The notes under the pieces are model-generated. The model was given only the letters and a program-made list of their open reading frames with translations, did not search any database and was not told where the DNA came from. The position numbers and the translations under genes were made by a program. Positions 1,424-33,199 of a stretch of DNA of 64,000 nucleotides are shown here, in pieces. Position 1 is the first letter of the stretch; the number at the start of each line of letters is the position of its first letter. The stretch is from NCBI RefSeq assembly GCF_001486505.1, contig NZ_LN909065.1, positions 1 through 64,000 on the forward strand, given 5' to 3'. This DNA is from Paenibacillus rubinfantis (GTDB lineage: Bacteria; Bacillota; Bacilli; Paenibacillales; Paenibacillaceae).

Positions 1424-3682
1424 ATGAAAACAAAAGGAATGATGATTTTGGGAGCTGTTCTTGGCTCCTTTCTTATTTCAGCAGGAGGTGCGGCTGCGGC
1501 CGAACGGTTTTCGGATCTCCAACATGTGAAGTGGGCGGAAGACAGAATAAACTATATGGCTGACAGGGGGACTGTTGCCGGATATGGGGATGGGAAGTTT
1601 GCGCCAGACAAGCCAGTGACTCGAGCGCAAGCCGTAACTTTTATGGTGCGGGAGCTTTATCCAGAGCAACTGCAATCCGGAGCGGTTCGCACGAGCTATT
1701 CTGATGTTCCAACCACACATCCTTTTTATCGCGAAATTAGTGTTGCGGAGAAAAATGGACTGGCCAGCGGATTTCCCGACGGCACATTCCACCCCGATAC
1801 GGCGATGAGCCGCGCGGAGACGGCTGCCTTTTTAACTCGCGCCTATGCACTTGTGAGTGGCAAGCAACCTGTAAACTTAACAGATGTCCATGATCATTGG
1901 GCCGCCGCGCCGATCCATGTCATGAGCTCTAACGGACTCCTTGGTGGATATCCAGATGGCACGTATCGTCCGGATCGAACCGTCACGCGGGCGGAGTTTT
2001 CCGTCTTTCTATCACGGGTGATTCGATTCGAACGCCAAACCGCCATCGTGGCGCAGGATTGGGACAAGCTGATCTCCTATATGACCATCAGCGAGCAAGT
2101 AGGCCAAATGCTAATGCCAGACATCAGGCAATGGAATGGCCAAGCGACAACAACAGTCAACGAAGGATTGAAGGACCGCATTCACGGTCAGGACCTCGGA
2201 GGACTTATTCTTTTTGATAAAAATATTATCGACGCACGTCAGATCGTAAAGCTCACCCATGATATACAACAAGAAGCAGGGGATATTCCTCTCTTTCTCG
2301 GCATTGATCAAGAAGGAGGCGTGATTAAGCGTATCCCAGGGGGAACCAATCTGCCGGGGCAAATGGCGCTTGGGGCAACCGGAGACGCGGCGCTGGCCGA
2401 AGCGGCCGGAAAGCTTACGGGAGAGGAGTTGAAGGCGCTGGGGCTACAGGTCAATTTTGCTCCGGTGCTCGATGTGAACAGCAATCCGGATAACCCCATC
2501 ATCGGAATGCGTTCTTTTAGCTCGGATGCGGACCTGGTATCACGCCTTGGCCTTGCAACGATCCAAGGGCTGCGACAATCCGGGGTGATCGCGGCGGTGA
2601 AGCATTTTCCGGGGCATGGAGATACGACGGTTGACTCGCATTTGGGATTGCCTGTACTGACGCATAGTCGAGATCGGCTAGATGCGGTGGAACTCAAGCC
2701 ATTTCGAGCGGCTATCGACGGTGGGGTGGAGATGATCATGACCGCCCATATCGCCTTCCCTTCGGTAGATCATGAACTTGTGACATCACTTAAGGACGGA
2801 AGCAGCGTACCGATTCCAGCGACTTTATCGAAGAAGGTGCTAACCGGCCTGCTCCGGGAGGAGCTTGGTTATCAAGGAATCATCATATCGGATGCCTTCA
2901 CGATGAATGGGATCGCGGAGCATTTTGGGGAGAATCAAGCGGTAGAACGAGCCGTCAACGCCGGTGTCGATATCATCCTGATGCCGCAGGACCCAGCAGC
3001 GGCCCATCAAACGCTGGTTCAAGCGGTGAAGAAGGGAACGATTCCGGCCGAAACCATCCACGAGTCAGTGAAGCGTATCTTGGAGCTGAAATCGAAATAC
3101 GGGTTGTTTGATCAAAAAGCAAGCCTCACGCAGAAGCTAGGCGCACTGAAAACTATCGGCTCTGAAGCGCACCGCGCGGTGGGAAGAGAAATTGCGGAAC
3201 GTGCGGCTACCGTTTTGGCCAGCCGTGACGGTGCCCAGCCGGATCCGATTCGATCAGGAGACCGGGTCGTTATTGCCGCAGTCGATCAGGAGCAGGCGGA
3301 GCAGCTTCAGCGACAGTTGGCGAAAGCCAGCAGCAACCTTTCGCTAACAACAGAAATTTCCATCTTTGGTCAAGGCAAAATATCAGAGACCCTTCAAAGG
3401 ATGGAGAAGGCGGATTACGTTATTTTGGCCTCCTATCAATTCCGTAATGTAGCTAGTCAATTCGGTTGGGCCGAGGTTCAGACGATGATTAATGACCTAA
3501 ACAAGCAAAATACGCGGTACACGTTATTATCGCTTGGCAATCCGTACGAGATGATCTATGTGCAGAACATCAGGTCAGGGCTTGCCGTTTACGGAAAGCA
3601 AGAGCCTAATACCCATGCCGGGATCCAAGTGTTGCTCGGTCAGTTGAAAGCCAACGGGAGATTGCCCGTGAGTACGAAATAA
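1424..3682 (+). CDS. SLH-domain family 3 glycoside hydrolase (beta-N-acetylglucosaminidase type)
   Basis: 752 aa, exported. A signal peptide spans about residues 1-26. Three S-layer homology domains follow (about 28-78, 91-141 and 151-200), each with the GYxDGxFxPDxxVTRAE pattern, and should anchor the enzyme to the cell wall. The GH3 catalytic domain (about 215-560) has the NagZ signature KHFPGHGDTTVDSH (393-406) with its His/Asp acid-base pair, and the nucleophile Asp in IISDAFTM (D490). A C-terminal region completes the Bacillus-type NagZ. The expected reaction is release of GlcNAc from muropeptides during wall recycling. The related Bacillus enzyme is a lipoprotein or secreted protein; the SLH anchor replaces that here. 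RBS GAGAGG precedes the ATG. Confidence 0.93.
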   Translation: MKTKGMMILGAVLGSFLISAGGAAAAERFSDLQHVKWAEDRINYMADRGTVAGYGDGKFAPDKPVTRAQAVTFMVRELYPEQLQSGAVRTSYSDVPTTHPFYREISVAEKNGLASGFPDGTFHPDTAMSRAETAAFLTRAYALVSGKQPVNLTDVHDHWAAAPIHVMSSNGLLGGYPDGTYRPDRTVTRAEFSVFLSRVIRFERQTAIVAQDWDKLISYMTISEQVGQMLMPDIRQWNGQATTTVNEGLKDRIHGQDLGGLILFDKNIIDARQIVKLTHDIQQEAGDIPLFLGIDQEGGVIKRIPGGTNLPGQMALGATGDAALAEAAGKLTGEELKALGLQVNFAPVLDVNSNPDNPIIGMRSFSSDADLVSRLGLATIQGLRQSGVIAAVKHFPGHGDTTVDSHLGLPVLTHSRDRLDAVELKPFRAAIDGGVEMIMTAHIAFPSVDHELVTSLKDGSSVPIPATLSKKVLTGLLREELGYQGIIISDAFTMNGIAEHFGENQAVERAVNAGVDIILMPQDPAAAHQTLVQAVKKGTIPAETIHESVKRILELKSKYGLFDQKASLTQKLGALKTIGSEAHRAVGREIAERAATVLASRDGAQPDPIRSGDRVVIAAVDQEQAEQLQRQLAKASSNLSLTTEISIFGQGKISETLQRMEKADYVILASYQFRNVASQFGWAEVQTMINDLNKQNTRYTLLSLGNPYEMIYVQNIRSGLAVYGKQEPNTHAGIQVLLGQLKANGRLPVSTK

Positions 3683-3839: not shown

Positions 3840-4517
3840 TTGAAAAGAAAAGTATTATATATCGAAGATAATGAGAAAATCGGCGGTTGGGTCAAAGAAG
3901 AACTGGAGCAGCGTGGATTCTTAGTGCAGTGGCTGCTGTCCGGGGAAGCTGCTGAACGAGAAGTGAGCCAGCATGACGTCGTCATTTTGGATATTATGTT
4001 GCCGGGATTAGACGGATTTACGGTGGGAAAACGATTAAAAAAGGCGGCTCCTGCCGTTCCTATTTTGCTGTTATCTGCTCGAACCTCGATAGAAGACAAG
4101 GTGGACGGGTTACAATTTGCGGATGACTATTTAACGAAACCTTTCCACACGGAGGAACTGGTGGCTAGATTGGAAGTATTAATTCGTCGAATGGGTGGAA
4201 CCCCTTCCGAACGCATCTCATTAGGAAATCAGATTGAAGTTGACCCAGAAGGCCAGATGGTATATGACAAACACACCGGAGAGGAAATTATCTTAACCGG
4301 GAAGCAACATCAGATCTTGATGTACTTTTTGCGGCACCCCAATCAAGTTTTGCCCAAAGAACAGATCTATGAAGCCATTTGGCAAGAACCTTATATCACA
4401 GGGGATAAAACGATTATGGTGCATATCCATCGATTGCGTCAAAAGCTGGAGCGTTATCCGGATTCCCCGGAGATCATTGAAACGTTAAAAGGAATAGGGT
4501 ATCGGGTGAAGTTATGA
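3840..4517 (+). CDS. OmpR-family two-component response regulator
   Basis: 225 aa from a TTG start with GTGAGGG upstream. The N-terminal receiver domain has the phospho-acceptor Asp51 in VVILDIMLPGLDGF and the conserved Lys in YLTKPF. The loop before ADDYLTKPF is one residue shorter than in most relatives. The C-terminal winged helix spans about 125-225. The stop codon overlaps the start of the histidine kinase by 4 nt, so the two are co-translated. The likely target is the ABC-2 exporter immediately downstream. The ligand or stress cannot be read from the sequence. Confidence 0.93.
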   Translation: MKRKVLYIEDNEKIGGWVKEELEQRGFLVQWLLSGEAAEREVSQHDVVILDIMLPGLDGFTVGKRLKKAAPAVPILLLSARTSIEDKVDGLQFADDYLTKPFHTEELVARLEVLIRRMGGTPSERISLGNQIEVDPEGQMVYDKHTGEEIILTGKQHQILMYFLRHPNQVLPKEQIYEAIWQEPYITGDKTIMVHIHRLRQKLERYPDSPEIIETLKGIGYRVKL

Positions 4518-31635: not shown

Positions 31636-32502
31636 TTAGTTGGTAACCGTCAATCGAATGCCGATACCAAACGGATCGCTTAGCCGGAGTTCATTCCCCT
31701 CCCGCACATAAGTCACCTTGGCTTCGGCTAGTCGACTTTCGACAGCTTCCAGGGCAGGGACGTCCGGCAGCTCCGTCGTAAAGTAACGAATGCCGACCGC
31801 ATCCTCCGGCGCTGGCGGCGCGCCTTTGCCGGCCCACAGGTTCAAGCCGATATGGTGGTGGTAACCGCCAGCTGAGATAAATAAGGCCGATGCCCCGAAG
31901 TGAAGAGTGACCTCAAACCCCAAAATACCGCAATAGAACTGTTCCGCCTGCTGCAAATCGCCGACATGAAAATGCACGTGACCGATGCGGGTTCCTTCCG
32001 GCAAACCGTGCCACTCCGCCTGCTCGGATAACGTCAGGAGGTTTTCGATGTCCACGGGGTCCGTCGTCATACGAATTTCACCAGATGTAGTTTTCTCCCA
32101 GGTTTCCCGCGGACGATCCGCGTAGATCTCGATGCCGTTCTGATCCGGATCGCTTAGATACAACGCTTCGCTGACCAGGTGATCCCCCTGTCCCACCGGG
32201 ATTTGGTGGCGGATCAAATTGCGCAGCGCAAGGCCCAGCGTCACTTGATTCGGTACCAAGATCGCAAAATGATATAACCCGGACACAGACTGCTCGGGTA
32301 AAACACGATAACGGGCATCCGCCTCCAGAATCAGCAAGGGATGTTGGCCGTCCGCGGTTAATTCGGCAATGGAACCGCTCTGCCGCAGCACTCGGAAGCC
32401 GATCACTTCCTGATAGAAGGCGAGCGAACGGTCGAGATCCCGAACTTTGAGATGAACCACACCGATTTGAGCAGCGGGATGAATCGGTAAAGGATGGGCC
32501 AT
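31636..32502 (-). CDS. VOC-family extradiol dioxygenase (CatE-like)
   Basis: 288 aa from the ATG behind AAGGAGG. Two VOC modules: residues about 10-125 (GVVHLKVRDLDRSLAFYQEVIGF) and 155-285 (RIGHVHFHVGDLQQAEQFYCGILGF). Candidate metal ligands in the second module are His in GHVHFHV, His in GGYHHHIGLN and a late acidic residue. Length and layout resemble Bacillus CatE, a catechol 2,3-dioxygenase induced by quinones and catechols. Its promoter is covered by two GTAAC-N7-GTTAC boxes, also found before the adjacent Rrf2 gene. Confidence 0.87.
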   Translation of the reverse strand: MAHPLPIHPAAQIGVVHLKVRDLDRSLAFYQEVIGFRVLRQSGSIAELTADGQHPLLILEADARYRVLPEQSVSGLYHFAILVPNQVTLGLALRNLIRHQIPVGQGDHLVSEALYLSDPDQNGIEIYADRPRETWEKTTSGEIRMTTDPVDIENLLTLSEQAEWHGLPEGTRIGHVHFHVGDLQQAEQFYCGILGFEVTLHFGASALFISAGGYHHHIGLNLWAGKGAPPAPEDAVGIRYFTTELPDVPALEAVESRLAEAKVTYVREGNELRLSDPFGIGIRLTVTN

Positions 32503-32568
32503 AATTTGATTTTTCCTCCTTCGGATAAAAGCATGATCTATGGATAAATTACGCAATAAAAGCCAGGT

Positions 32569-32632
32569 GTAACAAACGTTGTTACATTCAAACCATTGTA
32601 ATCAGTATAGTTACAGGTATGGGAATTGTCAA
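32569..32632 (-). promoter_or_regulatory. Dioxygenase promoter with two Rrf2-type operator boxes
   Basis: -35 TTGACA (32632-32627), 17-bp spacer, -10 TATACT (32609-32604). Box 1, GTAAT-N7-GTTAC (32598-32614), has the -10 hexamer exactly inside its N7 centre. Box 2, GTAAC-N7-GTTAC (32569-32585), lies 29 bp downstream. A bound repressor would occlude the promoter. Confidence 0.82.
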
Positions 32633-32642
32633 TTCAGCATCC

Positions 32643-32669
32643 AAAAAAGCCCCCTGCGATAGGGGGCTT
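32643..32669 (-). terminator. Intrinsic terminator after the Rrf2 gene
   Basis: AAGCCCCCT / AGGGGGCTT stem followed, on the minus strand, by a T6 run. It ends the regulator transcript just before the dioxygenase promoter. Confidence 0.92.
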
Positions 32670-32699
32670 ATCTCCGCTTCTTGCCTAGGTTCACTTGCG

Positions 32700-33134
32700 T
32701 TACATGGATGGAGTGTTGGCTGAGATCTCATCCACAACATCCTGCAGCGTTACGGCTGCCAGCGTATTCTCCATCGCTTTTTGCGCCGAGGAGAAAATCG
32801 GTTCGATGGCCGATTGAATATTTTTGCCCACTGGACAATCCGGGTTGGGATGATCATGGACGGCAAACAAACCGTCTTCCTCCACGACATGCACCGCGCG
32901 GTAAACGTCAAGCAGCGTGATCTGATCCAGCTGCCGCGACAGCTTGGCTCCGGCCACCCCTGTACGGACTTCCACCAGGCCCGCTTTGTTTAGCATGCCC
33001 ATGATCCGGCGGATCACCACCGGGTTCGTGTTGACGCTGCCGGAAATATATTCCGAGGTACTGACCCCGTCCTTGTTGATTTCAAGCAGGGACAAAATAT
33101 GAATGGCCACGGAAAATCTGGAGCTGATCGTCAT
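32700..33134 (-). CDS. Rrf2-family transcriptional regulator (YwnA-like)
   Basis: 144 aa, very like Bacillus YwnA throughout (SVNTNPVVIRRIMGMLNKAG; AVHDHPNPDCPVGKNIQ). It lacks the three clustered cysteines of Fe-S Rrf2 proteins and keeps only Cys100, so a thiol-based redox or electrophile switch is more likely than a cluster. It lies just upstream of the dioxygenase gene on the same strand, and both promoters carry the same box. Confidence 0.9.
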   Translation of the reverse strand: MTISSRFSVAIHILSLLEINKDGVSTSEYISGSVNTNPVVIRRIMGMLNKAGLVEVRTGVAGAKLSRQLDQITLLDVYRAVHVVEEDGLFAVHDHPNPDCPVGKNIQSAIEPIFSSAQKAMENTLAAVTLQDVVDEISANTPSM

Positions 33135-33163
33135 GTTAAGCCGATCCCCCTTTCCATCATCTT

Positions 33164-33199
33164 GTAACCATATTAGTTACTTAAGGAGGGGGATGTCAA
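33164..33199 (-). promoter_or_regulatory. Autoregulated promoter of the Rrf2 gene
   Basis: -35 TTGACA (33199-33194), 18-bp spacer, -10 TAATAT (33175-33170). The box GTAAC-N7-GTTAC (33164-33180) again centres on the -10 hexamer, exactly as in the dioxygenase promoter. Confidence 0.8.

Follow-up and report, generated by a model that had tools for sequence, protein, structure and literature searches.

The sifR-catE locus and its products

The window (the whole stretch of DNA analysed, 64,000 nucleotides) carries a predicted Rrf2-family regulator gene and a neighbouring dioxygenase gene, here called sifR and catE after their closest described counterparts. Transcription on the minus strand runs from the Rrf2 gene (33134-32700) through a hairpin and a two-box promoter into the dioxygenase gene (32502-31636). 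The features are as follows:

31636-32502, minus strand: catE-like gene for a two-domain VOC-superfamily extradiol dioxygenase of 288 amino acids (from PF00903, the structure model and invariant residues)
32515-32521, minus strand: ribosome-binding site AAGGAGG of catE
32568-32586, minus strand: predicted catE operator 2, in the leader, TGTAACAACGTTTGTTACA, arms perfect
32597-32615, minus strand: predicted catE operator 1, over the -10, TGTAACTATACTGATTACA
32604-32609, minus strand: catE -10, TATACT
32627-32632, minus strand: catE -35, TTGACA
32647-32669, minus strand: intrinsic-terminator-like hairpin at the end of the regulator's transcription unit, before catE
32700-33134, minus strand: sifR-like gene for an Rrf2-family regulator of 144 amino acids with one cysteine (C100) in HDHPNPDC
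33163-33181, minus strand: predicted sifR operator over the -10, AGTAACTAATATGGTTACA, for autoregulation; 64 of 80 relatives also have it here
33170-33175, minus strand: sifR -10, TAATAT
33194-33199, minus strand: sifR -35, TTGACA

The original prediction placed three GTAAC-N7-GTTAC boxes here, two before the dioxygenase gene and one before the rrf2 gene, and all three were recovered: 32569-32585 (GTAACAAACGTTGTTAC) and 33164-33180 (GTAACCATATTAGTTAC) are exact, and 32598-32614 (GTAATCAGTATAGTTAC) has one mismatch. When the pattern was extended to the 19-mer TGTAAC-N7-GTTACA, the mismatches were none at 32568-32586 and one each at 32597-32615 and 33163-33181. The predicted layout of a TTGACA -35 followed by a -10 inside N7 was also confirmed in both promoters, where the -10 hexamer is exactly bases 1-6 of N7 on the minus strand. 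The catE promoter has TTGACA (32632-32627), 17 bp and TATACT (32609-32604), and the regulator promoter has TTGACA (33199-33194), 18 bp and TAATAT (33175-33170). The second catE box (32568-32586) lies in the leader, downstream of the -10; most close relatives keep such a second box, about 24-29 bp 3' of the first. The hairpin (32669-32647) parts the sifR and catE transcription units.

The regulator belongs to the Rrf2 winged-helix family (PF02082, 114.2 bits, cut-off 30), and it is the one SifR-type protein in the genome. Its nearest solved structures are PDB 1ylf (E 4.5e-44) and 1xd7, which is YwnA (E 1.2e-38 over 135 residues), and its relatives near P. timonensis/phocaensis share 92-97% identity with it. 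As predicted, it has a single cysteine and lacks an Fe-S set. C100 fits the motif HxxPNPxC at the start of helix alpha5 and is among 20 residues invariant across 29 diverse relatives; the three or four Cys/His ligands of IscR, NsrR and RirA are absent from this one-cysteine protein, and the IscR and RirA models scored far below cut-off.

The start of the dioxygenase gene was assigned to ATG 32502, behind AAGGAGG (32521-32515), rather than to an upstream TTG. The product falls in Pfam PF00903 (Glyoxalase/dioxygenase), and its matches to the HpaD and catechol 2,3-dioxygenase models are weak and below cut-off. Its AlphaFold2 model (pLDDT 93) has 1zsw and 3oaj (B. subtilis putative dioxygenase) as best PDB matches over the full length, followed by classical extradiol dioxygenases matched by domain. 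CatE has the VOC/extradiol fold with a conserved His/Glu set: H78, E125, H175/H177/H179 and H215-H217 are invariant among 40 homologues. Judged by how the VOC modules are ordered, the metal site would consist of H78, E125 and one of H175-179. The homologues of CatE (window 31636-32502) keep His/Glu in modules 2 and 3 and do not keep the usual C-terminal Glu. The sequences suggest that the two middle VOC modules form the metal site, which would set it apart from that of classical catechol 2,3-dioxygenase. By analogy with the S. pneumoniae and B. subtilis CatE enzymes, its predicted reaction is Fe(II)-dependent cleavage of the catechol ring. Across the family, 12 of 29 catE upstream regions carry the box, and most of the more distant Paenibacillaceae lack it; control of catE by SifR would therefore be lineage-limited.

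Further candidate targets

A genome scan for the box, suggested along with the original prediction, was run and returned two probable extra targets, a QorB/YtfG-like reductase and a BdbD-BdbC pair. The composite -35/operator/-10 pattern was found at three places in the genome (catE, qorB-like and bdbD) and at none for the control; the regulator's own promoter shares the layout with its longer, 18-bp spacer. The proposed two-promoter mini-regulon was consequently too small: the layout recurs at a third promoter at least (QorB-like) and probably at a fourth (BdbDC).

The product of the qorB-like gene, on contig C16, matches E. coli YtfG (quinone oxidoreductase 2, 2zcu) with E 1e-58 and also the triphenylmethane reductase 2jl1. 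Its box is exact, comes with TTGACT-17-TATAAT and was retained by all six close congeners inspected (G018, G044, G055, G076, G104 and G153). A QorB-like gene of many Paenibacillus and Brevibacillus (L092-L111) is preceded by two boxes that overlap, 15 bp apart (TGTAAC..GTTATAAC..TTACA), which is unusual for a double operator. They lie about 40-80 bp downstream of sifR, for example at 4459 and 4474 of L092.

The BdbD-BdbC (DsbA/DsbB-type) pair lies at C17:1234600-1240600 (locus positions 1653-3052) and has an operator-like 19-mer over its -10: the box is TGTAACTAGAATGGTTGCA, and TTGACG stands 17 bp upstream of TAGAAT. In 29 of 30 congeners this box lies upstream of bdbD, even where protein identity falls to 54% (shuffles, 0.38). 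In some congeners the -10 is displaced and the box is retained, which argues for an operator. Every one of the 29 congeners whose SifR orthologue is close (68% or more) has the box, one of the 29 being counted at two mismatches, versus 2 of 11 without such an orthologue; G150 and G158 keep it without a close SifR. When the tree was taken into account, this amounted to two to three independent concordant changes and no discordant one, for which a sign test is not significant. Of the 30 bdbD-like loci inspected outside the genus, several of them with a SifR, none has the box upstream. The comparative data indicate that bdbDC is probably a SifR target in Paenibacillus; our literature search returned nothing on Rrf2 with BdbD.

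Relatives also have this operator-promoter in front of YwnB-type NAD(P)-binding genes beside sifR (L055, L065, L066, L069, L070, L141 and L142) and, in L067, of an azoreductase-like gene. In a Mediterraneibacter MAG (L114), box pairs 49 bp apart recur several times within 6 kb around a SifR relative (1971/2020, 3939, 6575/6624 and 7336).

Conservation of the boxes and competing explanations

The palindromes might have arisen by chance or as a by-product of good promoters, and two counts point that way. At up to two mismatches the window holds 13 boxes against 13.25 expected, which is chance level, and the 5.37 Mb genome holds seven exact 17-mers against four for the reversed control pattern, a weak enrichment. 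The exact 19-mer was found twice in this genome versus zero times for the control, and 76 versus 13 times summed over 39 genomes of the genus. The box (at most one mismatch, at most 300 bp upstream of the regulator gene) was present in 64 of 80 relatives taken from named genomes, against a mean of 0.05 for shuffled upstream regions, and the conserved arms lie outside the promoter hexamers. These relatives span Paenibacillus to Lachnospiraceae and include Bacillus, Brevibacillus, Cohnella and Planomicrobium. The -10 directly follows TGTAAC (offset 6) in 52 of 58 non-redundant promoters; read on its other strand, this DNA gives 4 of 58. The bdbD arms, moreover, stay in place even when the bdbD -10 has shifted, as it has in some congeners. 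It is this conservation, with the clustering at the exact or one-mismatch level, that shows the boxes not to be chance; the loose count is uninformative. We give the chance explanation practically no credence, and for the sifR and catE boxes it is refuted by conservation. Other one-mismatch boxes of the genome do look like chance by their place: C15:267475 in a transposase-like ORF, C16:409962 in an ABC permease gene, C17:277400 and C18:1222912.

If the boxes are genuine, they could still belong to a different regulator, perhaps a thiol sensor of the DUF24/MarR type (YodB, CatR and MhqR are examples), with the Rrf2 gene merely a target. YodB and CatR control catE in B. subtilis, judging from the title of a cited reference, and a MarR gene elsewhere in the genome has its own near-exact box. 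However, the box tracks the sifR gene across genera with differing neighbours, it equals the operator measured for SifR (PMC9218516), and the MarR gene has no orthologue (E at most 1e-20) in the other 38 congeners tested, which carry boxes. This makes a different owner very unlikely. The MarR-family gene itself (C14:338797; L030 4497-5016) has the box TGTAACTGAGTTTGTTACT 64 bp before its start and was found only in this genome among the 39 congeners; it was possibly acquired and drawn into the regulon, or shares it. Somewhat less remote, although still improbable, is a HypR- or SaiR-like disulfide switch that answers hypochlorite or disulfide stress rather than quinones. The protein matches the NCBI HypR model weakly, and allicin induces ywnA and ywnB of B. 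subtilis (PMC6943732). Against this, the match of 51.6 bits does not reach the HypR cut-off of 180, the cysteine motif and operator are those of SifR, and one cysteine, where HypR has two, allows no intramolecular disulfide. A HypR-type switch was rejected for want of a second cysteine.

Proposed mechanism and comparison with known systems

From the observed sequence, promoter geometry, conservation and co-distribution, we read the locus with high confidence as a SifR/YwnA-type electrophile-response regulon in Paenibacillus, in which binding, repression, quinone sensing and regulation of bdbDC would follow the scheme below. As far as sequence can tell, the regulon is real, conserved, autoregulated and SifR-type. 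The regulator very probably senses toxic quinones through its one cysteine, by analogy with SifR. The predicted cysteine-switch repressor of the dioxygenase stands in part: strong comparative evidence supports an autoregulated single-cysteine Rrf2 repressor with operators over both -10s, and a quinone adduct, as in SifR, fits the cysteine switch better than a disulfide does because there is a single cysteine. S-thiolation of C100 under disulfide stress may also occur.

Promoter geometry and the published SifR suggest occlusion of the -10 and a quinone adduct at C100. The reduced SifR dimer would bind the 19-bp palindrome TGTAAC-N7-GTTACA, whose half-sites are spaced by the -10 hexamer, so that the bound dimer would hide the -10 and block RNA polymerase. 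The second catE operator, in the leader, may make repression tighter or stop elongation early on. Modification of C100, where the dimerisation helix begins, by quinones derived from catechol or by similar electrophiles would release the dimer. CatE would then be made and cleave the catechol ring, more SifR would provide negative feedback, and the QorB/YtfG-like NAD(P)H quinone reductase would be produced, probably along with BdbD-BdbC, the extracytoplasmic disulfide-forming pair. A DsbB-type membrane enzyme passes electrons to quinone. We regard the chances as even that SifR also controls BdbD-BdbC, tying cytoplasmic quinone detoxification to this type of enzyme, and that the rule of the -10 as spacer is fixed across Firmicutes.

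The probably fresh parts are the strict operator-over--10 layout (which the SifR authors may have noted), the adjoining sifR and catE genes with their double operator, and the probable targeting of bdbDC. The locus carries the SifR model beyond a host-adapted pathogen, whose single regulon is scattered, into Paenibacillus, in which the dioxygenase gene lies next to that of its predicted regulator. It also offers a rule for predicting SifR targets in Firmicutes, TTGACA-N17/18 with TGTAAC-[-10]-N-GTTACA. Confirmation of the bdbDC box would connect the formation of disulfide bonds with quinone stress.

The pairing of such a regulator with a dioxygenase had been thought undescribed, but it was already published in 2022 for SifR and catE of S. 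pneumoniae (PMC9218516); our literature search returned nothing on Rrf2 with Paenibacillus, dioxygenase or quinone. According to that paper (PMC9218516), SifR of S. pneumoniae D39 is an Rrf2 repressor with one conserved cysteine in HxxPNPxC and the operator TGTAA-N9-TTACA, catE is the most derepressed gene of the SifR mutant (191-fold), and quinone addition to the single conserved cysteine abolishes DNA binding. Its authors put SifR together with YwnA of B. subtilis in a single cluster of monothiol Rrf2 regulators and state that catechol induces ywnA; the function of YwnA was termed unknown in 2022. Every SifR-class feature readable from sequence is found in the Paenibacillus protein.

YwnA (B. 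subtilis, 1XD7) and the B. cereus Rrf2 protein 1YLF are close in sequence and have the same cysteine motif; however, B. subtilis ywnA forms an operon with ywnB and, unlike Paenibacillus, has no sifR-catE neighbourhood. HypR of Staphylococcus aureus, another redox regulator of the Rrf2 family, is related to them and has an operator of the TGTAA-x9-TTACA type (PMC9218516), although it differs in having two cysteines, in switching by a disulfide and in controlling merA. YodB and CatR, on B. subtilis catE, resemble the proposed system in thiol-based repression and in responding to catechol and quinones, but they belong to the unrelated MarR/DUF24 repressor family.

The closest likeness is to SifR of S. 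pneumoniae: both are single-cysteine HxxPNPxC Rrf2 proteins with TGTAA-N9-TTACA operators, and their known or predicted targets include an NAD(P)H quinone reductase besides catE. In S. pneumoniae, sifR lies apart from catE and its regulon extends to iron uptake (piuBCDA, fre, yhdA), whereas in Paenibacillus sifR lies next to catE, each gene having its own promoter; two predicted operators serve catE, a QorB/YtfG-like enzyme takes the place of the reductase, and bdbDC probably joins the targets.
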